64,000 bases of DNA, from contig NC_017542.1 of assembly GCF_000237325.1 (NCBI RefSeq), positions 1,743,501 to 1,807,500 of the forward strand. Reading direction: 5' to 3'. Source of the DNA: Paenibacillus polymyxa M1 (GTDB taxonomy: Bacteria; Bacillota; Bacilli; Paenibacillales; Paenibacillaceae). Shown here one piece after another: positions 12,002 to 61,665 of the stretch. The notes below the pieces were generated by a model. It was not told where the DNA came from and ran no database searches. It saw nothing but the letters and a program-made list of their open reading frames with translations. Within the stretch, counting starts at the first letter, position 1; the number at the start of each line of letters is the position of its first letter. The position numbers and the translations under genes were made by a program.

Positions 12002-12093
12002 TAAATTATTTTGAAACTTTTCATATATATTGATATACATTTTGACATAGTGTTGTTATAATATAATCAATGACATAGCAAAGGATGATCCAT

Positions 12094-12711
12094 ATGAGTG
12101 AGATTAGACACTATGGTTACATAAGGGTATCGACGAAAGACCAGAACGAAGCTCGACAATTGGAAGCAATGCAAGATTTAGGTATCATGGAACGTGATTA
12201 TTTCATTGATAAGAAAAGCGGCAAGAATTTTGACAGACCACAATATCAAGCATTGAAGAGTGTGCTTAGGAAAGGCGACATTCTGTTCATCAAGGACCTG
12301 GACAGACTTGGACGGAATGCAGAAGAAATCAAACGTAAATGGCAAGATATTACGCACGAGATAGGCGCACACATCGTTATTCTTGATATGCCAATTCTTG
12401 ACACTAGACAATATCATAATGGCTTGGAGAAAGTTATATCCAGTATTGTGCTTGAATTACTCAGCTACATGGCAGAACGTGAACGTGAGAAGATAAACGG
12501 TAGACAATCTGAAGGTATAGCAGCAGCTAAGAACAATGGCGTTGTGTTTGGTCGTCCTAAACAGGCAATAAGCGATGACTTCATTATGGTATATGAGGAA
12601 TGGAAGCAAGGTGGAATAACAGCAGTGGAAGCCATGAGACGTATAGAAATGAAGCCTAACACGTTCTATCGTAGGGTAAAGGAATATGAGCAACAGCAAC
12701 AGGTAGGATAA
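12094..12711 (+). CDS. Serine recombinase (resolvase/invertase), copy 1
   Basis: MSEIRHYGYIRVSTKDQNEA carries the catalytic Ser in YIRVST. FIKDLDRLGRN and MAEREREKINGRQSEGI follow the resolvase pattern, and a C-terminal helix-turn-helix (GGITAVEAMRRIEMKPNTFY) contacts DNA. Length (205 aa) fits Tn3-type resolvases and Hin-like invertases. The ATG at 12094 is well spaced from AAAGG; an in-frame ATG three codons earlier is less likely. It sits between the secreted-protein gene and receptor gene 1. The near-identical copy at 31474-32091 is inverted. Confidence 0.9.
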   Translation: MSEIRHYGYIRVSTKDQNEARQLEAMQDLGIMERDYFIDKKSGKNFDRPQYQALKSVLRKGDILFIKDLDRLGRNAEEIKRKWQDITHEIGAHIVILDMPILDTRQYHNGLEKVISSIVLELLSYMAEREREKINGRQSEGIAAAKNNGVVFGRPKQAISDDFIMVYEEWKQGGITAVEAMRRIEMKPNTFYRRVKEYEQQQQVG

Positions 12712-13372: not shown

Positions 13373-14791
13373 ATGAATATTACACCCACGATTAGAGCAG
13401 AATTGGAACAATTTCTACAACAAGAGGACTTAACATTATCGCAATTTGGACAAATTGCAGGGATGAATAGGGGAATAATAAGTAGCATTGTAACAGGTAA
13501 TAAATCTATGTCTATTAATCAGCTTGATCGAATTACTGAAGCTATGGGTTTACCAGAAGGGTATTTTTACGATCTGTTTATAGATAACTATATCATCGAC
13601 ACTCCCCCGAATATGAGACGAATAGAACCATTTTTGTATCGCTGTGCGGAGTTGGATAAGCTGGATGCGATCCGTCGAGTGGTGGGGGCCATCATGGACA
13701 ATCTTCTCTACTCACCCAAACTATTTGAAATTGCAGAAGGATTGTTGGCACAGGGACGACTAGGAGCGGCATTGATACTCTATGAGGGAGTTGCAGAAGC
13801 GGAGAAGTACCAGCACTCGGAACGGTTAGCCATCTGTCAATATCGTATATTTAAAATCCAGATTGGAGACGACCAAAGTAAAAACCTTAGTGCAGCTACG
13901 ATTTTTGAAGTTTTTGTTGAGCGCCTTAATGAAGTAGACCAACTTGACGCATTAAAGGATTTGGCAAACGTATACAGGTCTTTACGTAAATGGGATAAGG
14001 TTGAGGAAATAGCTAAAAAAATGAGAGCTAAAGCTGAAATCCAATATACACTGAAACATAAACAGAACAGTCGAGAACGTGATGAATCTACTAAAAATCT
14101 AACTCGTCCCTTGTTTGTATACATTTCCTATGCTGACCTGTTGTGTGCAAGTGTCTGTGAAGCCCAAGGCGATTATCAGCAAGCTTTACAATATACTTAC
14201 GCCTACGCGGATTTAGAATGGGTTAAAGAGGATGACGAGGATACCCAGCACTGGATTGGTTTATACAAGCAATGGTCAGAAGGTAATACTCACGTTAACA
14301 AACTCCTGTCTGGAGATACAAGTGTGCTTACGGAATATGTTGAATACATTGCCTCAACAAATGTAACGGATAAAGAAATGGTCACCAAACTGTTAAATGT
14401 TATGATGGCTGCTAATCGTTATCAGATTGATGTAGATAACATACTTCAGCGCTTTGAAGTTGAAATTGATTCTTTTACTCAGCAGGGACATCCATCATCT
14501 GATATGTACACTAATCAGGTAATACCAGAACAATTCGCACGTTTGAGTTATGAATTAGCTTATTATCAATTACATCGAGGTACATATGATGATGGCTTCA
14601 AATTCTTGATGTATTCAATGGTAAGTTATCATACACTAAATAATGAGACTTATTTCATTAATTGTATGGGGCTATTTTTACATTTTAGGGATCATGCAGT
14701 TCCTGAAATCAAAGTCGGTTTTTTAAATTTTATTGAAAAGGTGTGGATGAACAATGTCGAAAAAAGTGGTAATGCTGATCATCGCGGCTAG
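13373..14791 (+). CDS. aloR: RRNPP-type peptide receptor (AloR-like), HTH plus TPR, locus 1
   Basis: 472 residues. Residues 1-70 are an XRE-type helix-turn-helix (LTLSQFGQIAGMNRGIISSI), and the rest is helical repeats of TPR type (RRIEPFLYRCAELDKLDAIR, AALILYEGVAEAEKYQ, ALKDLANVYRSLRKWDKVEE). This is the layout of RRNPP sensors such as AimR, NprR and PlcR, which bind a re-imported signal peptide and change DNA binding. I recall that Paenibacillus has many such pairs called AloR/AloP. The pro-peptide ORF starts inside the last 38 bp of this gene, so the pair is translationally linked. A toxin gene follows 470 bp later. Confidence 0.9.
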   Translation: MNITPTIRAELEQFLQQEDLTLSQFGQIAGMNRGIISSIVTGNKSMSINQLDRITEAMGLPEGYFYDLFIDNYIIDTPPNMRRIEPFLYRCAELDKLDAIRRVVGAIMDNLLYSPKLFEIAEGLLAQGRLGAALILYEGVAEAEKYQHSERLAICQYRIFKIQIGDDQSKNLSAATIFEVFVERLNEVDQLDALKDLANVYRSLRKWDKVEEIAKKMRAKAEIQYTLKHKQNSRERDESTKNLTRPLFVYISYADLLCASVCEAQGDYQQALQYTYAYADLEWVKEDDEDTQHWIGLYKQWSEGNTHVNKLLSGDTSVLTEYVEYIASTNVTDKEMVTKLLNVMMAANRYQIDVDNILQRFEVEIDSFTQQGHPSSDMYTNQVIPEQFARLSYELAYYQLHRGTYDDGFKFLMYSMVSYHTLNNETYFINCMGLFLHFRDHAVPEIKVGFLNFIEKVWMNNVEKSGNADHRG

Positions 14792-14870
14792 TTTTTTGTT
14801 AATTGTTACTGTGCCTATTCAGTCACATGTTGCAGAAATCCATCTTTACGATCAAATCGGAGGTTCTTAA
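14754..14870 (+). CDS. aloP: Secreted signal pro-peptide (AloP-like), locus 1
   Basis: 38 residues: MSKKVVMLIIAASFLLIVTV is a short signal peptide, followed by a polar tail ending LYDQIGGS. The ATG lies within the receptor 3' end in another frame, with AAGGTG upstream. Three other pro-peptides here share the K/VVMLII.AASF core and a GGS/GGA end, while their middles differ. That is expected for signal specificity, and phage AimP peptides likewise end in xxRGA. The mature signal is probably the last 6-8 residues; the processing site is not known. Confidence 0.85.
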   Translation: MSKKVVMLIIAASFLLIVTVPIQSHVAEIHLYDQIGGS

Positions 14871-15339: not shown

Positions 15340-16517
15340 ATGGGGAGAATATTAGTTCCACCTGACAAACTGATGGAAGTTGCTGATCAGTTCTTACACG
15401 GAAAGCATGAATTGGAACGTATGCTGAATCATTTGAGTGGACGAATTGATTTTGTGCAACAAGGCTGGTCTGGAGCCACCCAAGAGAGATTTTTTCAGGA
15501 ATTTCAGGTTTCTCGACAATCCATGAGCGTGACGCTTGAACGACTATCTATGGTTGCACAAGAACTCATCTTTATTTCAAAAAGTTTTACACAGGTAGAT
15601 GGAGAGAAAGTGGTACTGGATGTGCCGTGGCTTGGCACCCCTGTTAAAACGGCATCCACAGGTGAAGGTTGGTTACATAAAATCTTTGAACAGATTGGAA
15701 AAGCGGAGATCACCAAGGCTGAAGCCCAGATGGAAGCTAGCAAACTTCAAGGAGAAATCCTCTGGGATACTGCACAGGGAGCAAAAAGTGCTATTCAGGA
15801 AGATTTAAGCTTAGGGATGTTACCTGATAAAGAACGGGATTATGATCATCCCATGGCAGCTAAAGTAGGTGAAATTCTCGGTCATGCAGCTACAACATTG
15901 CAGGGAGCTGGTGAGGTAGTAGCTGGATTAGGTGGAGAAGGATTATCAGTTGCAGTTTCATCTACAGGTGTAGGGAGTATAATCGGAGTACCAGGATTAA
16001 TTGGATCTGCAGCTTTGACGGCGCATGGAGCTACAACGGCGGTTAAAAGTGCAAGTGGAGTAGGAGAAAAAACAGCGGAATTGTGGCAGATGGCGAGAGG
16101 AGAAGGTGGAGGCTCATCAAAATCCACTTCTTCTTCGGGAGCTAAGCCAGAGAGTACGCCTCATGCTCTTGAGGGGGGGGCGGAGGTGGAAATTATGCTA
16201 AACCCTATGACGGAACACGTAATCCAGAAGTGGATTTTATGAATGGTAAAGGTAAAAGTACATTAGATAGACATGTCAATAAGTACGATTATGATTCACC
16301 AGAAAAATATTTACATGATGCAAGAGAATTTTTAGAAAAACGCCCAACGTCAACAACTCAGACTTTTGTCTCAAACGAAGGAACATACTTCAGATATGAT
16401 TCTGCTACAAATGAATTTGGGATAATTAATAAGTACGGAGGAATCTCAACTTATTTCAAGCCTGAAGATGGGTTGGAATACTGGTTAGAGCAAATTAGTT
16501 TATATAGTCCAAAATAA
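15340..16517 (+). CDS. Type VII-type polymorphic toxin 1, C-terminal domain out of frame at a G8 tract
   Basis: The first 300 codons encode a WXG100-like delivery domain (QQGWSGATQERFFQEF, W43-S-G45), a conserved middle (LDVPWLGTPVKTASTGEGWL) and a glycine-rich hydrophobic linker. The frame then ends at 16242. With nine rather than eight G at 16173-16180, it would continue as GGGNYAKPYDGTRNPEVDFM into a toxin domain with DRHVNKYDYDSPEKYLHDA, YDSATNEFGI and TYFKPEDGLEYW. That pattern recalls BECR-fold RNase toxins of the CdiA/YobL kind; the activity is inferred. Corrected length is 392 aa. A CPCC-type gene follows 15 bp later as probable immunity. Confidence 0.75.
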
Positions 16518-17214: not shown

Positions 17215-17378
17215 AAATGGGAGTAAGCTTTCTCCATCTGAGTTTGCTACAAGCAACTCCTATAACGGATAGAGCGCACAAATTAAAATAGAAAGAAAGT
17301 ATTTGGGTACTGACGGGAATTTGTATAGGAACAATCAGCAAAATATTACCCATATACCAGTGGATCTTGGGAGGTAAA
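17215..17378 (+). pseudogene. Orphan toxin tail (same type as toxin 2)
   Basis: Broken frames read KLSPSEFATSNSYNG, then a stop, then RKYLGTDGNLYRNNQQN. This matches the last 50 residues of the intact toxin at 39575-40921. It lies immediately upstream of a cognate-type immunity gene, as orphan modules do when a newer toxin cassette displaces an older one. Confidence 0.75.
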
Positions 17379-17379
17379 C

Positions 17380-31473: not shown

Positions 31474-32091
31474 TTATCCTACTTGTTTCTGTTGCTCATA
31501 TTCCTTTACCCTGCGATAGAACGTGTTAGGCTTCATTTCTACGCGCTTCATTGCTTCGACTGCTGTTATTCCACCTTGCTTCCATTCCTCATATGCTGTA
31601 ATAAACTCATCACTTATTGCCTTTTTAGGCCGACCAAATACCACACCATTATTTTTGGCTGCTGCTATATCTTCAGATTGTCTACCGTTTATCTTCTCAC
31701 GTTCACGTTCTGCCATGTAGCTGAGTAATTCAAGCACGATACTAGATATAACCTTTTCCAAACCATTTTGATATTGTCTAGTGTCAAGGATAGGCATATC
31801 AAGGATAACAATGTGTGCACCTATCTCACACGTTATATCTTGCCATTCACGTTTGATTTCTTTAGCATTCCGTCCAAGCCTGTCAAGTTCCTTAATGAAC
31901 AGAATGTCTCCGTGTCTAAGTACGCTCTTTAATGTTTGATATTGTGGTTTGTCAAAATTCTTGCCACTTTGCTTATCAATGAAGTAATCACGTTCCATAA
32001 TACCTAAGTCCTTCATCGATTCTAATTGTCTAGCTTCATTCTGATCTTTACTCGATACTCTTATGTAAGCATAGCGTCTAATCTCACTCAT
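31474..32091 (-). CDS. Serine recombinase (resolvase/invertase), copy 2
   Basis: MSEIRRYAYIRVSSKDQNEA, with catalytic Ser in YIRVSS. Otherwise close to the copy at 12094, including FIKELDRLGRN, MAEREREKINGRQSE and the C-terminal helix-turn-helix. Start chosen as for copy 1. Its terminator (AGCCTAGATGATTATG-TCTAGG) lies at 31432-31458. The gene sits inside the inverted segment it may have moved. Confidence 0.9.
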   Translation of the reverse strand: MSEIRRYAYIRVSSKDQNEARQLESMKDLGIMERDYFIDKQSGKNFDKPQYQTLKSVLRHGDILFIKELDRLGRNAKEIKREWQDITCEIGAHIVILDMPILDTRQYQNGLEKVISSIVLELLSYMAEREREKINGRQSEDIAAAKNNGVVFGRPKKAISDEFITAYEEWKQGGITAVEAMKRVEMKPNTFYRRVKEYEQQKQVG

Positions 32092-32199
32092 ATGGATCAT
32101 CCTCTACTATGTCATTAATTATATTATAGCAAAAATATGTAAAAATGTATGCTATATGACAAAGTATTGGAAAAAGACTTGGCTAAATTGAGCATAATA

Positions 32200-32799: not shown

Positions 32800-34218
32800 A
32801 TGAAAATTACACCCACGATTAGAGCAGAATTGGAACAATTTCTACAACAAGAAGGCTTAACATTATCTAAATTTGGACAAATCGCAGGGATGAATAGAGG
32901 AATAATAAGTAGCATTGTAAAAGGTAATAAATCTATGTCTATTAATCAGCTTGATCGAATTACTGAAGCTATGGGCTTACCAGAAGGTCGCTTTTATGAT
33001 CTATTTATAGAAAATTATATTATTGACCATCCTCCTAATATGAGACGAATCGAGCCGTTTTTGTTTCGCTGTGCGGAGTTGGACAAGTTGGATGCAATCC
33101 GTCGAGTGGTGGGAGCCATCATGGATAATCTGCTGTATTCACCCAAGCTATTTGAAATTGCAGAAGAATTGTTGTCGCAGGGAAGACATGCGGCTGCATT
33201 GCTACTCTATGAGGGGGTAGCTGAAGCGGAGAGATATCAACATTCTGAACGTTTGGCGGTTTGTCAATATCGTATATTCAAGATTCAGATTAGTGACGAT
33301 CAAAGCCAAAATGTCGGGGCGGCAGCCGTATTTGAGGCTTTTGTCGAACGACTAGATGAAATAGACCAGCTTGACGCATTGAAGGATTTAGCAAACGTAT
33401 ACAGGTCTTTACGAAAATGGGACAAGGTTGAGGAAATGGCGATAAAAATGAGAGCTAAAGCCGAGATCCAATATACAATGAAACATCAACAGAACAGCCG
33501 AGAACAGACCGAATCTAGCGACAAGCTAAGTCGTCCCTTGTTTGTGTACATTGCTTATGCAGACTTGCTCTGTGCTAATGCATGTGAAGAGCAGGGTAAT
33601 TATGAGCAGGCATTACACTATACATATGCCTACTCCAATTTAGATTGGGTTAGAGAGACCGATGAGGATACCCAGCACTGGATTGGTTTGTTTAAACACT
33701 GGTCACAAGCTAATATACTTGCATATAGGCTTTTATCTGGTGATGTGAGTGCGCTTCATGAATATCTAAACTTTATTGATGACTCATCAGATACGATTCA
33801 AGAAGATAGGGTAACTCAATTACTTAACATAATGACGGCGGCTAACCGTTATGAGCTTGATTTAAACGATATACTTAAACGATTTGAAACAGAAATTGGG
33901 TCTTTATCTCAGCGACCATCATCAGATGATATGTATACCCAGCAAGTAATACCGGAATACTCTGCACTTTGTGGATATGAATTGGCTTATTATTATTTAA
34001 ATCATGGGATGCATTATGATGGCTTTAATCATTTGTTTTGTGCAATGGTAAAAGCGCATATACTAAATAATGAGACATATTTTATAAATTGTATGGGGTT
34101 GTTTGTGCGTTTCAAAGCCCATGCGGTATCTGAAACCAAAACAGAGTTTTACAATCTCATTGAAAAGGTGTGGTTAAACAATGTTGAAAAAAATGGTAAT
34201 GTTGATCGTTGTGAGTAG
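32800..34218 (+). CDS. aloR: RRNPP-type peptide receptor (AloR-like), locus 2
   Basis: 472 residues. The HTH (LTLSKFGQIAGMNRGIISSI) is nearly identical to locus 1, while the TPR part diverges more toward the C-terminus. That pattern fits shared DNA recognition with changed peptide specificity. The pro-peptide starts within its last 38 bp. Downstream are a papain-like secreted protease gene and a membrane-anchored protein remnant. Confidence 0.9.
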   Translation: MKITPTIRAELEQFLQQEGLTLSKFGQIAGMNRGIISSIVKGNKSMSINQLDRITEAMGLPEGRFYDLFIENYIIDHPPNMRRIEPFLFRCAELDKLDAIRRVVGAIMDNLLYSPKLFEIAEELLSQGRHAAALLLYEGVAEAERYQHSERLAVCQYRIFKIQISDDQSQNVGAAAVFEAFVERLDEIDQLDALKDLANVYRSLRKWDKVEEMAIKMRAKAEIQYTMKHQQNSREQTESSDKLSRPLFVYIAYADLLCANACEEQGNYEQALHYTYAYSNLDWVRETDEDTQHWIGLFKHWSQANILAYRLLSGDVSALHEYLNFIDDSSDTIQEDRVTQLLNIMTAANRYELDLNDILKRFETEIGSLSQRPSSDDMYTQQVIPEYSALCGYELAYYYLNHGMHYDGFNHLFCAMVKAHILNNETYFINCMGLFVRFKAHAVSETKTEFYNLIEKVWLNNVEKNGNVDRCE

Positions 34219-34791: not shown

Positions 34792-35364
34792 GTGCTTATG
34801 GGGGTATTAGCACTTAGTGCTATCGCTCCATTAACATCAGCCCAAGAGATCAATTCAGACAAAAGCACGCCTAGTTACATAGATTACAAATCTCTTCATG
34901 TGCCTTCACATAAACAAGAAAAATCTAACTGGTGCTGGGCTGCTACTTCACAGATGGCTATAGAACATTTAGGTGGAAATAAAACTCAATCTCAAATCGT
35001 AAAATATATTAAAGGTAGTCTCGTAAATAAGGGAGGCTCGGATAAAGAAGTAAAAAGCGCGCTAGCATATGGGGGGGTGAGCTCTACAATTGATAAAGAG
35101 CCGATACCCTTTGGAACTATTATCTCTCAAATAAAAAGAAATCAACCGCAATTAGCGCATATCGTGTGGAAGGACGACTCTGATCTTGGACATATGTATC
35201 TAATAAATGGATATTCAGATAATACAAATTTAGGATTTCAAAAAGTATATTACAATGACCCTGCCGTTGGTGAGAAGATGGATAAAATAGATTACTATGA
35301 TGGATTTGTTAATAACAGAGATTTTAGTTGGTATAGCACTATAAACGAAATTTATGTTGATTAA
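34792..35364 (+). CDS. Secreted papain-like cysteine protease, start frameshifted
   Basis: VPSHKQEKSNWCWAATSQMA gives the QxxxxWCWA active-site Cys. GHMYLINGYS carries the His and YYNDPAVG the Asp/Asn, as in C39-like/papain-like exported proteases. The best start is ATG 34764 after AAAGGAAG, reading MKK then IKKIAFVLMGVLALSAIAP if the A8 run at 34767 had seven A. The frame shown opens at TTG inside the signal peptide. Located right after receptor/pro-peptide pair 2. Confidence 0.75.
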   Translation: MLMGVLALSAIAPLTSAQEINSDKSTPSYIDYKSLHVPSHKQEKSNWCWAATSQMAIEHLGGNKTQSQIVKYIKGSLVNKGGSDKEVKSALAYGGVSSTIDKEPIPFGTIISQIKRNQPQLAHIVWKDDSDLGHMYLINGYSDNTNLGFQKVYYNDPAVGEKMDKIDYYDGFVNNRDFSWYSTINEIYVD

Positions 35365-38138: not shown

Positions 38139-38351
38139 ATATTTGTGGAATATTTTCCCCTACAGTTATACACATCTTTAATTGTACATACAGTCTGGTT
38201 ACAATTTTATCAAATAGGTTGCATCTGAAAGACAACTGTAGACAGTTTCGAACTCTGGTATTCAAGCTAAGGGCTAACATGTAGGAAGTTAGCATGTTTG
38301 TATAAATAGTATGGAATGCTTGTTCGTCTCTAATCTTGAAAAGATGTGGTT

Positions 38352-38473
38352 ATGAATGTTAGAAAAATGGTACTTCTAATCATTGCGGCTAGTTTTTTTT
38401 TATCGTTATTATACCTGTCCAGTCGAATAGCCATCAGGTTAATCCATACTATGATCCAATTGGTGGAGCATGA
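38352..38473 (+). pseudogene. aloP: Orphan signal pro-peptide (AloP-like), T9 frameshift, receptor lost
   Basis: MNVRKMVLLIIAASFF then meets nine T (38393-38401). With ten T it reads FIVIIPVQSNSHQVNPYYDP and ends IGGA, a perfect 40-residue AloP-like pro-peptide; as sequenced it runs out of frame. Just upstream, SNLEKMWL and a stop match the last residues of the receptors (NLIEKVWL), so a receptor gene has been deleted and only its stub remains. The second toxin locus follows 1.1 kb downstream. Confidence 0.75.
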
Positions 38474-39574: not shown

Positions 39575-40921
39575 ATGGGGAGAATATTAGTTCCACCTGA
39601 TAAACTGATGGAAGTTGCTGATCAGTTCTTACACGGAAAGCATGAAATGGAACGTATGCTGAATTTTTTGAGTGGACGGATTGATTTTGTTCAACAAGGC
39701 TGGTCTGGAGCTGCCCAGGAGAGATTTTTTCAAGAATTTCAGGTTTCTCGACAATCCATGAGTGTGACGCTTGAGCGACTATCAGCAGTAGCACAAGAAC
39801 TTATTTTCATTTCAAAAAACTTTACACAGGTGGACGGGGAGAAAGTCGTATTGGATGTGCCGTGGCTTGGTACCCCTGTTAAAACGGCATCCACAGGTGA
39901 AGGTTGGTTACATAAAATCTTTGAACAAATTGGACAAGCTGAGATCACCAAGGCTGAAGCTCAATTGGAAGCTAGTAAACTTCAAGGAGAAATCCTTTGG
40001 GATACTGCACAGGGAGCAAAAGGAGCTATTCAGGGGAATTTGACATTGGGGATGCTGCCAGATAAAGAACGAGATTATAATCATCCGATGGCAGCTAAAG
40101 TAGGAGAAATTCTCGGTCACGTAGCTACGACATTGCAGGGAGCTGGTGAGGTAGTAGCTGGATTAGGTGGAGAAGGATTATCAGTTGCTGTTTCATCTAC
40201 AGGAGTAGGGAGTATAATCGGGGTACCCGGATTAATTGGATCGGCAGCTTTGGCGGCGCATGGAGCTACAACTGCGGTTAAAAGTGCAAAAGGAGTAGGA
40301 GAAAGCTCAGCAAAATTGTGGAAGATGGCGAAGGGAGAAGGTGGAGGCTCATCAAAATCTACTCCTTCTTCGGGAGCTAAGGCAGAAAGTGCAACTCCTA
40401 CTGAAAGTAAGGGGAGAAATCAGGAAGAACTAAAGCAAAAATTGTCGCATGAACGTGAATTGAAAGCAGACAAGAAACCCGAAAATCGTATGGAAACATT
40501 AGCTCAAGCAGAAAAGAATATTGCTGAACATAAAATGCAGATGGAAAAACTAATCGACAGTGATGGGAACTTTAATCTTAGTAATGGACTAATAGAAAAT
40601 GGAAAAATAAGCAAACACCAACTACAATCTTGGGTACCATCAGGAGCAAGTAATAATTTTAGACCTGATCCTGGTATTATTGAGAGTGGTTATAAGTATA
40701 ATTTTAATTATAATGGGACAAAGGTTGAAATAAAATGGCACTCACCACAGCTTAACCTGAGCAGCAAGCTTTCTCCATCTGAGCTCGCTGCAAGCAATTC
40801 CTATAACGGATGGAGTGCACAAATCAAAATAGGAAGAAAGTATTTGGGTACTGACGCGAATTTGTATAGAAATAATCAGCAAAATATATATACCAGTGGA
40901 TCTTGGGAGGTAAACAAATAA
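39575..40921 (+). CDS. Type VII-type polymorphic toxin 2, intact
   Basis: 448 residues. The N-terminal WXG100-like domain (QQGWSGAAQERFFQEF), middle region and glycine-rich linker are almost the same as toxin 1. A charged coiled coil follows (NQEELKQKLSHERELKADKK), then a toxin domain of about 120 residues with FRPDPGIIESGYKYNFNYNG, KVEIKWHSPQLN, SYNGWSAQIKIGRKYLG and NLYRNN. This resembles polymorphic toxin type 30 as I recall it; nuclease activity is inferred. The stop TAATG overlaps the start of the immunity gene. Export would need a type VII system outside this window. Confidence 0.85.
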   Translation: MGRILVPPDKLMEVADQFLHGKHEMERMLNFLSGRIDFVQQGWSGAAQERFFQEFQVSRQSMSVTLERLSAVAQELIFISKNFTQVDGEKVVLDVPWLGTPVKTASTGEGWLHKIFEQIGQAEITKAEAQLEASKLQGEILWDTAQGAKGAIQGNLTLGMLPDKERDYNHPMAAKVGEILGHVATTLQGAGEVVAGLGGEGLSVAVSSTGVGSIIGVPGLIGSAALAAHGATTAVKSAKGVGESSAKLWKMAKGEGGGSSKSTPSSGAKAESATPTESKGRNQEELKQKLSHERELKADKKPENRMETLAQAEKNIAEHKMQMEKLIDSDGNFNLSNGLIENGKISKHQLQSWVPSGASNNFRPDPGIIESGYKYNFNYNGTKVEIKWHSPQLNLSSKLSPSELAASNSYNGWSAQIKIGRKYLGTDANLYRNNQQNIYTSGSWEVNK

Positions 40922-43313: not shown

Positions 43314-43613
43314 ATGGCTAAAAAGGGACAATCATTCCGGCAATACTCCTTAGATGTAAAGATGGAGGCAATCCGGTTGGTGAACGAAGAACATATGAGT
43401 ATTCGTGAAGTGACGAAACACTTAGACATTCGTAATAAATCCCAAGTACAAAGCTGGGTGACGAAATATCGAGCGGGGGAGAACCTCCAGCCAACGACCA
43501 CAAGACAGGGACGACCCAAAACGAAATTTTCCAGTATGGAAGAAGAGATGGCGTATCTACGGGCGGAGATTGAATATTTAAAAAAGCAGTATCCAAATCT
43601 ACACAAGGAGTGA
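43314..43613 (+). CDS. IS3 orfA, transposase HTH subunit, copy 1
   Basis: 99 residues with an N-terminal helix-turn-helix (RQYSLDVKMEAIRLVNEEHM, IREVTKHLDIRNKSQVQSWV) and a C-terminal leucine-zipper-like helix (MEEEMAYLRAEIEYLKKQY). It binds the IS ends. Overlaps orfB by 4 bp. Confidence 0.9.
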   Translation: MAKKGQSFRQYSLDVKMEAIRLVNEEHMSIREVTKHLDIRNKSQVQSWVTKYRAGENLQPTTTRQGRPKTKFSSMEEEMAYLRAEIEYLKKQYPNLHKE

Positions 43614-44476
43614 CGAGGAAAGAAGCGAGGTTTGAAATTATTGAGGGAATGCGAACACGATATTCGTTGAAATGGTTACTTGAATTAGCCCATGTTTCTC
43701 GGGCAGGATATTATAAATGGAGAAAGACTCAGCAAACAACCCAGCAGCGTAAGCAAGAAGAAGAGCTTCTGGAATCGCATATGTTGTCGATCCACCGGAT
43801 CCATCCCTATTTTGGTTATCTGCGGATGACCGTTGCTTTACGTAGAGAAGGTATCTTGGTCAATCACAAAAAGGTGTACCGCCTAATGAAGAAATTAGGG
43901 ATCCGTTCCGTCATTCGAAAGAAGCGGCGTTTTTTTGGCAAACAGGCATCTGTGGTAAATGCCAACCGATTAGATCGACAATTTCAGGCAGATTCTCCTT
44001 TATCCAAGCTGGTTACCGATATTACATACATACGAGCTGGAGAGCGGTTTGTATATCTCTCTGTCATTCAAGATCTGTTTAACAATGAAATCGTGGCTTG
44101 GCGTCTTTCGGAACGAAATGACCTTGCTCTAGTTAGCGAGACGCTAGACGTTCTAAGTAAGAACGTGAACATGGAGGGTGTCATTCTCCATTCAGACCAG
44201 GGTTTTCAGTATACCTCCAAGCCGTTTAACCGCAAGCTTAAGCGGCTTGGCATGCTTGGGAGCCATTCAAGGCGTGGAAATTGCCTAGACAATGCCTGTA
44301 TAGAATCCTTCTTCTCCCATCTTAAAACAGAGAAGATTTATTTAACGAAACCCGGAACCCTAGCGGAGGTAGAACAACACGTACGGGAGTACATTTCTTT
44401 TTATAATGAAAATAGATTTCAGAAAAAATTAAACAACCGTTCCCCGATTGAATACCGAGAAACGGTTGCTGCTTAA
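43610..44476 (+). CDS. IS3 orfB, DDE transposase, copy 1
   Basis: 288 residues, GTG start overlapping the orfA stop. HTH_21-like part (HPYFGYLRMTVALRREGILV) and rve integrase core with D in VTDITYI, D in LHSDQGFQYTS and E in NACIESFFSHLKTE. Translational coupling or frameshifting may also make an OrfAB fusion. Confidence 0.95.
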   Translation: MTRKEARFEIIEGMRTRYSLKWLLELAHVSRAGYYKWRKTQQTTQQRKQEEELLESHMLSIHRIHPYFGYLRMTVALRREGILVNHKKVYRLMKKLGIRSVIRKKRRFFGKQASVVNANRLDRQFQADSPLSKLVTDITYIRAGERFVYLSVIQDLFNNEIVAWRLSERNDLALVSETLDVLSKNVNMEGVILHSDQGFQYTSKPFNRKLKRLGMLGSHSRRGNCLDNACIESFFSHLKTEKIYLTKPGTLAEVEQHVREYISFYNENRFQKKLNNRSPIEYRETVAA

Positions 44477-53750: not shown

Positions 53751-54050
53751 ATGGCTAAAAAGGGACAATCATTCCGGCAATACTCCTTAGATGTAAAGAT
53801 GGAGGCAATCCGGTTGGTGAACGAAGAACATATGAGTATTCGTGAAGTGACGAAACACTTAGACATTCGTAATAAATCCCAAGTACAAAGCTGGGTGACG
53901 AAATATCGAGCGGGGGAGAACCTCCAGCCAACGACCACAAGACAGGGACGACCCAAAACGAAATTTTCCAGTATGGAAGAAGAGATGGCGTATCTACGGG
54001 CGGAGATTGAATATTTAAAAAAGCAGTATCCAAATCTACACAAGGAGTGA
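53751..54050 (+). CDS. IS3 orfA, copy 2
   Basis: Protein identical to 43314-43613; HTH plus leucine-zipper-like helix. Confidence 0.9.
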   Translation: MAKKGQSFRQYSLDVKMEAIRLVNEEHMSIREVTKHLDIRNKSQVQSWVTKYRAGENLQPTTTRQGRPKTKFSSMEEEMAYLRAEIEYLKKQYPNLHKE

Positions 54051-54913
54051 CGAGGAAAGAAGCGAGGTTTGAAATTATTGAGGGAATGCGAACACGATAT
54101 TCGTTGAAATGGTTACTTGAATTAGCCCATGTTTCTCGGGCAGGATATTATAAATGGAGAAAGACTCAGCAAACAACCCAGCAGCGTAAGCAAGAAGAAG
54201 AGCTTCTGGAATCGCATATGTTGTCGATCCACCGGATCCATCCCTATTTTGGTTATCTGCGGATGACCGTTGCTTTACGTAGAGAAGGTATCTTGGTCAA
54301 TCACAAAAAGGTGTACCGCCTAATGAAGAAATTAGGGATCCGTTCCGTCATTCGAAAGAAGCGGCGCTTTTTTGGCAAACAGGCATCTGTGGTAAATGCC
54401 AACCGATTAGATCGACAATTTCAGGCAGATTCTCCTTTATCCAAGCTGGTTACCGATATTACATACATACGAGCTGGAGAGCGGTTTGTATATCTCTCTG
54501 TCATTCAAGATCTGTTTAACAATGAAATCGTGGCTTGGCGTCTTTCGGAACGAAATGACCTTGCTCTAGTTAGCGAGACGCTAGACGTTCTAAGTAAGAA
54601 CGTGAACATGGAGGGTGTCATTCTCCATTCAGACCAGGGTTTTCAGTATACCTCCAAGCCGTTTAACCGCAAGCTTAAGCGGCTTGGCATGCTTGGGAGC
54701 CATTCAAGGCGTGGAAATTGCCTAGACAATGCCTGTATAGAATCCTTCTTCTCCCATCTTAAAACAGAGAAGATTTATTTAACGAAACCCGGAACCCTAG
54801 CGGAGGTAGAACAACACGTACGGGAGTACATTTCTTTTTATAATGAAAATAGATTTCAGAAAAAATTAAACAACCGTTCCCCGATTGAATACCGAGAAAC
54901 GGTTGCTGCTTAA
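54047..54913 (+). CDS. IS3 orfB, DDE transposase, copy 2
   Basis: Protein identical to 43610-44476, with all DDE residues present, so both copies look active. Confidence 0.95.
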   Translation: MTRKEARFEIIEGMRTRYSLKWLLELAHVSRAGYYKWRKTQQTTQQRKQEEELLESHMLSIHRIHPYFGYLRMTVALRREGILVNHKKVYRLMKKLGIRSVIRKKRRFFGKQASVVNANRLDRQFQADSPLSKLVTDITYIRAGERFVYLSVIQDLFNNEIVAWRLSERNDLALVSETLDVLSKNVNMEGVILHSDQGFQYTSKPFNRKLKRLGMLGSHSRRGNCLDNACIESFFSHLKTEKIYLTKPGTLAEVEQHVREYISFYNENRFQKKLNNRSPIEYRETVAA

Positions 54914-60171: not shown

Positions 60172-61521
60172 ATGAAGCATACACCTACGATTCGAGCAGA
60201 ATTAGATAAATATATACAACAAAAAGGTTTGAGCCTAGCGCAATTCGGACAACTTGCAGGCATGAATAGGGGGATAATAAGTGCTATTGTAACAGGAAAC
60301 AAGTCAATGTCTGTTAACCAGCTAGACCGAATCACTGAGGCTATGGGTTTACCAGAGGGAGAGTTTTACGATCTGTTTATAGAAAACTTCATCATCGACC
60401 ATCCCCCGAATATGAGGCGAATCGAGCCATTTTTGTTTCGCTGTGCGGAGTTGGACAGGTTGGATGCGATCCGTCGAGTAGTTGGAGCCATCATGGACAA
60501 TCTCCTGTATTCACCCAAGCTATTTGAAATTGCAGAAGGATTATTGTCGCAGGGACGATTAGAAGCGGCATTGATACTCTATGAGGGAGTAGCTGAAGCG
60601 GAGAGATATCAACATTCTGAACGCTTGGCAGTCTGCCAATATCGTATATTCACAATTCAAGTTGGAGAGGATCAAAACCGTAATCTCGAGGCAGCAACGC
60701 TACTTGAACCCTTTGTGGAACGTCTTGATGAAATGGAACAGCTTGACGCGCTGAAGGATTTAGCTAACGTGTACAGATCTCTGCGTAAATGGGACAAGGT
60801 AGAGGAAATAGCAAAATTAATGAGGGCTAAAGCGGAAATTCAATATAATTTGAAAAACGAACATAAGAGTCGAGAACATACTGAATGTACTGATAAGCTA
60901 AACCGTCCATTGTTTGTATACATTTCCTATGCTGACCTGCTGTGTGCAGGTGTCTACGAAGCCCAAGGCGATTACCACCAAGCTCTACAATATACATACG
61001 CCTATGCTAATTTAGATTGGGTTAAAGAGACAGACGAAGATACCCAACACTGGATTGGTTTGTTTAGGTACTGGGCAGAAGCTAATATTATTGTCAATAA
61101 GCTTTTATCCGGAGATATAGAGGTCCTGCAAGAATATATTGAATACATCGACGCAGCGAAGGATACAACCCAAGAAGATCGGATTATTCAACTACTGAAC
61201 ATTATGATAACGGCTAACCGATATGATATCGACGTTAGTGATATAATTAAACAATTTGAAACTGACATTGTTTCATTATCACAACACTCATCAAGTGATA
61301 TATATACTCAACAAGTGGTACCAGATTATTTTGCGTGGTGTGGTTATGAGTTGGCCCATTATTATTTACATCGAAATTCTTACGATGATGGTTTTAAACA
61401 TTTGATGTATTCTATGGTAAGTTATCATACACTAAATAATGAGACTTATTTCATAAATTGTATGGGGCTCTTTTTACATTTTCGAGAACATGCGAGTCTT
61501 GAAACCAAAAAAAATTTTTAA
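60172..61521 (+). CDS. aloR: RRNPP-type peptide receptor (AloR-like), locus 3, 3' frameshift
   Basis: Start MKHTPTIRAELDKYIQQKGL after AGAAGGTGG. HTH SLAQFGQLAGMNRGIISAI and TPR helices as in the other two. The frame ends LETKKNF at 61521 in a T5 run, about 22 residues early. With one more T it reads FLNLIEKVW and on to DRRG, matching the paralogs. It may be a sequencing error or a real truncation of the last helix. A pro-peptide gene starts 27 bp later. Confidence 0.85.
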   Translation: MKHTPTIRAELDKYIQQKGLSLAQFGQLAGMNRGIISAIVTGNKSMSVNQLDRITEAMGLPEGEFYDLFIENFIIDHPPNMRRIEPFLFRCAELDRLDAIRRVVGAIMDNLLYSPKLFEIAEGLLSQGRLEAALILYEGVAEAERYQHSERLAVCQYRIFTIQVGEDQNRNLEAATLLEPFVERLDEMEQLDALKDLANVYRSLRKWDKVEEIAKLMRAKAEIQYNLKNEHKSREHTECTDKLNRPLFVYISYADLLCAGVYEAQGDYHQALQYTYAYANLDWVKETDEDTQHWIGLFRYWAEANIIVNKLLSGDIEVLQEYIEYIDAAKDTTQEDRIIQLLNIMITANRYDIDVSDIIKQFETDIVSLSQHSSSDIYTQQVVPDYFAWCGYELAHYYLHRNSYDDGFKHLMYSMVSYHTLNNETYFINCMGLFLHFREHASLETKKNF

Positions 61522-61548: not shown

Positions 61549-61665
61549 ATGTTAAAAAAAATGGCACTGGTGATCGTCGCGGCTAGCTTTTTGTTAATTG
61601 TTACTGTACCTATTCATTCGCATGGCATAGAGCCTCAAGTACAGCATGGAGGGGCTTATACATAA
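61549..61665 (+). CDS. aloP: Secreted signal pro-peptide (AloP-like), locus 3
   Basis: 38 residues: MLKKMALVIVAASFLLIVTV, then a tail ending VQHGGAYT. AAAGGTG lies upstream. GGA is followed here by two extra residues, unlike the others. In the frame-corrected receptor the two ORFs would overlap as at loci 1 and 2. Confidence 0.8.
   Translation: MLKKMALVIVAASFLLIVTVPIHSHGIEPQVQHGGAYT

Follow-up and report, generated by a model that had tools for sequence, protein, structure and literature searches.

Overlapping Receptor and Pro-Peptide Genes of the Alo Family in Paenibacillus polymyxa M1 and a Candidate Position-by-Position Recognition Code

Three Receptor and Pro-Peptide Pairs

The window, the whole 64,000-nucleotide stretch of Paenibacillus polymyxa M1 DNA analyzed here, carries three genes for receptors with HTH and TPR regions. 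An earlier note on this DNA had described these receptors, which start at 13373, 32800 and 60172, as each being followed by a pro-peptide of 38-40 residues, and the ORF coordinates bear this out. It had also placed the pro-peptide start inside the receptor 3' end, in another frame, at loci 1 and 2; the overlap is exactly 38 nt at each. The parts of the loci are the following.

13373..14791, plus strand: aloR1, receptor of 472 aa, with an HTH (helices within residues 7-57) and a TPR superhelix
14099..14119, plus strand: AloR1 residues 243-249, tracking peptide position -1
14279..14299, plus strand: AloR1 residues 303-309, tracking positions -4 (304) and -5 (309)
14387..14389, plus strand: AloR1 residue 339, second site tracking -4
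14528..14542, plus strand: AloR1 residues 386-390, tracking peptide position -6
14738..14743, plus strand: AAGGTG, Shine-Dalgarno-like site of aloP1, inside aloR1
14754..14870, plus strand: aloP1, pro-peptide of 38 aa, predicted mature word DQIGGS
14754..14791, plus strand: overlap of aloR1 and aloP1, 38 nt, in different frames
32800..34218, plus strand: aloR2, receptor of 472 aa
34181..34303, plus strand: aloP2, pro-peptide of 40 aa, predicted mature word ATHGGA
34181..34218, plus strand: overlap of aloR2 and aloP2, 38 nt
38340..38473 (approximate), plus strand: degenerate aloP relic without a receptor, identified by eye, with a readable ending ...YDPIGGA
60172..61521, plus strand: aloR3, receptor of 449 aa from the ATG at 60172, usual C-terminal tail missing
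61549..61665, plus strand: aloP3, pro-peptide of 38 aa, after a 27 nt gap from aloR3

Judged by eye, the promoter regions upstream of aloR are of two types, one common to loci 1 and 2 and the other, at locus 3, of the TTGACA type.

Assignment to the Alo Family

Alo systems of P. polymyxa were described by Voichek et al. (2020, PMC7425212), and the RRNPP_detector study (Bernard et al., 2023, PMC10075063) includes AloR among the known RRNPP subfamilies; here and below, comparisons draw on portions of the cited papers. In common with the published systems, the window modules consist of an HTH and TPR receptor followed by a pro-peptide of 32-50 aa with an N-terminal hydrophobic helix (PMC7425212). 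The short ORFs directly downstream, at 38, 40 and 38 aa, fall within this range, their signals being judged from sequence, and both an N-terminal HTH DNA-binding domain and a divergent C-terminal TPR region are present in AloR. Helices 7-17, 22-29, 33-41 and 48-57 make up the HTH in the AlphaFold2 model of AloR1 (mean pLDDT 91.4). Profile comparison matches the receptor N-terminus to HTH chains of R-M controllers, and the HTH_3 Pfam matches of the three receptors (E 0.004, 0.005 and 1e-4) lie under the Pfam cut-off. In a fold search with the receptor model, AimR was absent among the matches listed.

The genome carrying the window (6.23 Mb, two contigs) was compared with AloR1 and yielded 32 matches, 17 of them near full length, including the truncated aloR3; the others are fragments or more distant partial matches. 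Downstream of one receptor of this genome, L018, lies a pro-peptide whose end, SHGRGG, is identical to the predicted mature AloP13, which is made up of the last six residues (PMC7425212); a Spo0E-like gene comes next, as in the published Alo13 arrangement. L018 is therefore probably the AloR13 orthologue and served as a stand-in for it. AloR1 is 36% identical to L018 over residues 4-440 of 472, which, with this stand-in, exceeds the threshold of at least 30% identity over 80% for homology to AloR13 in the RRNPP_detector AloR cluster (PMC10075063). Because the peptide and Spo0E-like neighbor of L018 match Alo13 and AloR1 is 36% identical to L018, sequence evidence supports the three modules as Alo systems, each an AloR receptor with an AloP pro-peptide; the RRNPP-type AloR/AloP identity that the earlier note had proposed was right. 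The modules themselves are ordinary new members of this known family.

All 50 named loci from the genome scan belong to Paenibacillus, in keeping with a Paenibacillaceae family. Among 31 plasmid records with relatives, 22 are from Paenibacillus, six from Brevibacillus, two are labelled Brevibacterium and one is from Arthrobacter. A phage origin was rejected, with two distant matches in 50,697 phage records.

A Fixed Overlap and a Shared Stop Codon

Receptors gathered from this genome, from the 50 named loci and from other genomes of the genus Paenibacillus gave a set of 160 distinct receptors, each spanning 420 codons or more from stop to stop and having 250 nt or more of downstream sequence. 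A signal-bearing short ORF lies near the stop in 129 of the 160, against 182 of 3200 control windows inside receptor genes. Partial overlap of short ORFs with the aloR 3' end and many copies per genome were already mentioned for P. polymyxa in 2020 (PMC7425212) and are common to the systems studied here. The earlier note had suggested a search of Paenibacillus genomes for the overlap pattern, and the 38-nt overlap proves to be conserved: aloP starts exactly at stop-37 in 112 of the 160 receptors (as called in 109; in three more a longer ORF was called, with an in-frame start at this point), none is in reach in 33, and 15 have another arrangement.

In this geometry, the receptor stop supplies the third base of AloP codon 12 and the first two bases of codon 13, such that residue 13 must be Ser or Arg with TAG, Asn or Lys with TAA, and Asp or Glu with TGA. 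The match between residue 13 and the stop is thus a necessity of the DNA, and the finding is the choice of TAG. TAG with Ser13 is found in 109 of the 112 overlapping pairs, the remaining three having TAA with Asn, whereas TAG ends 12 of the 33 peptide-less receptors (Fisher p 5e-14); among 46 ORFs of the window with 130 aa or more, selected mechanically, eight end in it. The AASF or VSSF signal core that the earlier note had recognized in the pro-peptides is real, and its Ser is invariant because the receptor stop is TAG, which spells Ser13. The comparison of many natural pairs shows that the receptor stop codon doubles as a piece of the predicted peptide secretion signal. Judged jointly with the modular code described below, a lock between the receptor TAG stop and AloP Ser13, tying the two genes together, is likely.

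Receptor Residues That Track Peptide Letters

Covariation between receptor columns and peptide positions was derived in the clade of the window receptors, using 58 pairs with the 38-nt overlap. Position -5 is tracked by residue 309, with a normalised mutual information of 0.87 and 0.24 for the next column. Asn at this residue goes with Gln in 35 of 35 pairs, Tyr with Thr in 19 and Pro in 2 of 21, and Phe with Val in 2 of 2. Position -4 is tracked by residue 304 (0.77), then by 339, 335 and 307 (0.43-0.54); Gly304 goes with Ile (27/27), Cys, Val or Ser with Val (9/9), and Ala with His in 19 and Gln in 3 of 22. For position -6, the leading residue is 390 (0.69), followed by 387, 386 and 338 (0.50-0.57). 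Gln387 accompanies Asp in 22 and Glu in 1 of 23 pairs, and Tyr387 accompanies Val in 28, Ala in 5 and Glu in 2 of 35; read together, residues 387 and 390 pair Gln and Arg with Asp or Glu, Tyr and Trp with Val, and Tyr and Leu mostly with Ala. Position -1 is tracked by residue 245 (0.67), then by 243, 249 and 244 (0.39-0.59). Here, Val249 goes with Ala or Ser (44/44), Gly249 with Phe, Met or Tyr (13/13) and Leu249 with Ala in one pair, and residues 243, 245 and 249 combine as Leu, Arg and Val with Ala or Ser, and as Thr, Gly and Gly with Phe. Positions -3 and -2 are a nearly invariant Gly-Gly. The background is low, with a median column of 0.07-0.08 and maxima of about 0.2 over 20 shuffles.

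The code sites lie on or beside model helices 247-264, 289-312, 333-350 and 378-401, which, judging from the model, would be the inner helices of successive TPRs. From the N- to the C-terminus of the receptor, they go from peptide position -1 back to -6, which would point the peptide C-terminus toward the N-terminal TPRs. Beyond -6, tracking drops: positions -7 to -12 reach 0.30-0.34, with -10 at 0.47 (with residue 310), against shuffles of 0.23-0.27. This drop supports predicted mature hexapeptides DQIGGS, ATHGGA and, with an additional YT in locus 3, VQHGGA. Reading loci 1 and 2 by the code returns DQIGGS and ATHGGA, the ends of their own pro-peptides, both loci being in the training set. 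A nearly modular code, in which every variable letter has a dedicated receptor site and these sites follow one another in reversed order on successive TPR inner helices, is a probable interpretation of these patterns.

Locus 3 and Relics

Locus 3 lacks the overlap because the aloR3 frame stops early, at an A/T run (61507-61519), although the DNA of the usual receptor tail, the Shine-Dalgarno-like site and the aloP start persist. Counterparts of aloR3 in P. ottowii (L033) and P. brasilensis (L039), taken as corresponding by their similar flanks, are full length and have the 38-nt overlap. The aloR3 residues call for VQHGGA, as in close relatives, whose peptides stop after QHGGA or QHGGF, and the aloP3 ORF extends two residues further. 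Of the three peptide ends listed in the earlier note, DQIGGS and ATHGGA stand on the code, but the YT of QHGGAYT is an extension of the word called for. Either YT is removed or the pairing has been lost.

It is an even question whether one or more of the three window loci, and locus 3 in particular, have decayed to relics that no longer signal. The truncated receptor and the longer peptide of locus 3 speak for decay, as do the degenerate aloP near 38340-38473 and fragmentary copies elsewhere in the genome. However, loci 1 and 2 are intact with peptides on code, and the tail missing from aloR3 belongs to a putative passenger region (see below). The receptor of L038 (P. brasilensis) also lacks the tail, yet its peptide VTIGGA is on code, and a homopolymer sequencing error in aloR3 is possible.

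Tests and Limits of the Code

The rule was fixed in writing before further pairs were fetched. The held-out set comprised 16 clade loci outside the training set, at least 60% identical to AloR1 and with an AloP; L006, L020, L038, L114 and L150 had been collected earlier than the rule but played no part in its training. With some calls allowing two letters and window locus 3 scored without its last two residues, the calls were right in 14/14 cases at -5, 15/15 at -4, 13/15 at -6 and 14/14 at -1. Both misses at -6 are accounted for by L226 and L150, the latter with a peptide that lacks Gly-Gly. Identity was measured for 14 held-out receptors, of which three are 95-99% identical to a training receptor and six at most 84%. 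The count leaves out three repeat entries of training loci, as well as truncated receptors and those lacking an AloP-like ORF (L235 plus strand, L245, L246, L247 in two pieces, L249 and L228 minus strand); short ORFs at L245 and L247 pass a loose filter but are unlike AloP.

An automatic test on 72 pairs (58 plus 14) dropped from training every pair sharing 75% identity or more with the query. At -5, -4, -6 and -1, the code was correct for 68, 68, 60 and 62 of 72 pairs, the nearest allowed receptor for 38, 30, 35 and 42, and the majority letter for 44, 21, 11 and 50. With the cut-off at 85%, the code gave 70, 68 and 62 at -5, -4 and -1, against 49, 47 and 47 for the nearest relative; at -6, the nearest relative did better (66 versus 60). 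Changes were also placed on a tree built from the TPR region minus the code columns, with similar letters grouped for 304 and -4. Position -4 and residue 304 undergo 14 changes each, all on shared branches; -5 changes 11 times and residue 309 ten times, with ten shared; and -6 (acidic versus aliphatic) changes six times and residue 387 four times, with four shared.

These results bear on the proposal that the loci are Alo systems in which residue tracking reflects shared ancestry or block recombination rather than recognition, which we consider unlikely. The family does recombine. Within the clade, HTH distance and mature-peptide distance are uncorrelated (r about -0.03), which fits domain shuffling, and distance over residues 281-420 correlates with mature-peptide distance (0.24-0.51); in the full set of 112 pairs, HTH and peptide distances are correlated (0.45, versus 0.71 for TPR). 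The weak tracking past -6, with the 310 pairing at -10, and the success of the nearest relative at -6 under the 85% cut-off also lean this way. In contrast, each peptide position has one leading column with a few followers on the same helices, and the same columns (309, 304, 390 and 245) were picked in 72 of 72 folds. Under the 75% exclusion the nearest relative is far worse at all four positions, receptor and peptide changes share branches many times, and signal-peptide positions exceed 0.3 in just three of 11 tested, all encoded by the overlap. Position-by-position recognition is thus the preferred reading within the clade.

Outside the clade of the window receptors, the code fails. All eight scoreable loci below 60% identity (L098, L230, L231, L232, L233, L234, L235 minus strand and L238) have at least one wrong call. 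Extension of the code to the mid clade was rejected, as -4 and -6 do not yield the code columns there.

A tandem second aloP lies 112-147 nt past the receptor stop at L044, L047, L056 and L229. At L044 and L229, the word of the second copy fits the receptor code less well than the first; the second peptide of L229, VQVGGS, is a misfit at -4.

Selection in the Overlap

Upstream, the third codon positions of close-clade receptors are those that vary most (1.11 bits); inside the overlap they vary least (0.38), and AloP third positions most (0.86). The mid clade shows the same pattern (0.84 versus 1.34). Among the 21 most distant pairs, the lowest value again belongs to the receptor third position (1.01), with AloP first and third positions alike (1.32 and 1.31). 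Receptor synonymous differences fall in the overlap, to 0.116 from 0.238 in the close clade and to 0.207 from 0.358 in the mid clade, whereas those of AloP barely change (0.368 versus 0.343, and 0.382 versus 0.423). From codon-position and synonymous variation, selection therefore very probably acts mainly on the AloP frame, with the receptor tail following as a passenger, a judgment made jointly with the interpretation as a whole.

That the short ORFs are not independent genes, and that the conserved 3' end is a functional receptor C-terminus, is highly improbable. In its favor, paired receptors conserve the tail residues (E-K-V-W..N-V). Against it, variation in the overlap tracks AloP codon positions, synonymous differences drop for the receptor and hardly for AloP, and receptors of a clade without aloP end in an unrelated FYY tail. 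In the model, the tail covers the end of the last helix and what lies beyond it, at lower confidence. Covariation also links the AloP C-terminus, which is not part of the overlap, to receptor residues a long way upstream.

The aloP-less receptors with the FYY tail include L046, L048, L050, L051, L077 and others. They may be listeners without a signal of their own.

Expression and Neighboring Genes

At receptor codons about 49-67 from the end, synonymous variation falls to 0.112 (best window) in the paired close clade, against 0.358 overall; the mid clade has a mild dip only (0.33-0.38, overall 0.485), and the orphan clade (n=13) stands at 0.54 at codon -60. An internal aloP promoter stays a suggestion, because a simple sigma-70 scan of the plus strand at the three window loci gave no promoter-like site at the low-variation codons, and haplotype homogenisation between paralogues is an alternative. 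Translational coupling through a hairpin was likewise set aside as not decisive: the Shine-Dalgarno and start region is slightly less accessible (0.42, n=91) than control stretches (0.50, sd 0.14, n=273).

Eight Spo0E-like genes in the genome exceed the cut-off and five of them adjoin alo copies, but none adjoins the three loci of the window. The window loci differ in this from published Alo13 (PMC7425212), and Spo0E control was rejected for them.

WXG100 genes follow locus 1 (15340), lie 1.1 kb past the aloP relic (39575) and follow L042 of P. terrae; the other loci compared for this, many with about 1.5 kb of flank only, gave no further WXG100 match. Alo control of these downstream toxin-like genes was not adopted, since the linkage may be chance given the short flanks and the upstream relic block that both window copies share. 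The two WXG100-domain proteins (15340-16242 and 39575-40921) are 89% identical over their first 286 residues and differ in their C-terminal parts, and a similar relic block precedes both genes. The second has a weak Ntox30 match under the cut-off. A remnant near the first (17222-17379) matches the C-terminal part of the second, as in polymorphic toxin arrays.

Serine resolvase-like genes, 89% identical to each other, lie upstream of aloR1 (12085-12711, plus strand, with a Pfam Resolvase match) and aloR2 (31474-32100, minus strand); relatives also precede alo loci in P. farraposensis (L064, L076) and P. terrae (L042, 41% identity). Downstream of locus 2, 34792-35364 encodes a papain-like protein (Peptidase_C39_2 / Peptidase_C70), which by its N-terminus is probably secreted; the gene is a possible target of locus 2. 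Two transposase-like ORFs (43610-44476 and 54047-54913), which we take to be of IS3 type, have identical translations, and the genes between them presumably correspond to suf and methionine-salvage genes.

Comparison With Known Systems and Implications

The Rap-Phr systems of Bacillus likewise have receptor-peptide coevolution and penta- or hexapeptide signals, with peptide duplication as a divergence step, to which the tandem aloP copies are comparable (Even-Tov et al., 2016, PMC5199041). In that paper, identifying the Rap positions on which coevolution crucially depends was called a key challenge for the future; for AloR, in contrast, coevolving receptor positions are proposed here. A survey of RRNPPA pheromones suggested that variability in one mature-pheromone position may give recognition specificity; its portions covered here hold no map from receptor residues to peptide positions, as is drawn above (PMC9765709). 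In ComR/ComS of streptococci, also an RRNPP-type sensor, specific peptide residues meet specific pocket residues, on the evidence of mutagenesis (PMC8605241), whereas the present code comes from many natural pairs. A structural tree places AloR, subfamily 08 and AimR in clan C, with nine-TPR folds, and streptococcal ComR among five-TPR folds; AimR is phage-borne, and the peptide motif of AimR and subfamily 08 is DPG, as opposed to xxxGGx here (PMC12700828). The RRNPP_detector study concerns detection and distribution, and the present work residue-level recognition (PMC10075063). In the portions of main text covered from PMC7425212, PMC10075063, PMC9765709, PMC11343458, PMC5199041 and PMC12700828, no statement was found of the fixed 38-nt geometry, the stop-codon/Ser13 identity or the recognition code. 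What goes beyond the literature examined is thus the fixed overlap with TAG and Ser13, and the residue-tracking code in the window clade.

The favored reading, to which we assign a probability of about 0.87, is that each intact module is an Alo quorum-sensing pair with position-by-position recognition in this clade. Pairing, overlap and residue tracking are visible in the sequences themselves; physical contact, processing and target genes we infer. AloR would be a cytoplasmic HTH and TPR transcription regulator, and AloP would be translated from a start codon within the aloR 3' end. By analogy with Alo13, AloP may be exported via its signal sequence and trimmed to its last six residues, and the hexapeptide may then be taken back into the cell, where it would occupy the TPR groove of the cognate AloR and alter AloR activity at nearby promoters. 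Recognition would proceed position by position, residue 309 with -5, 304 with -4, 387 and 390 with -6, and 243, 245 and 249 with -1, with the C-terminus of the bound peptide toward the N-terminal TPRs.

About 70 natural relatives give an explicit and testable letter-by-letter recognition rule for a family of bacterial peptide signals. Such a rule would predict which systems in one genome hear each other, which peptides orphan receptors may respond to and which exact mature peptide to synthesise. If the nearly modular code is true, peptide words would therefore be predictable from receptor sequence, and new orthogonal words would arise by combining or mutating sites.
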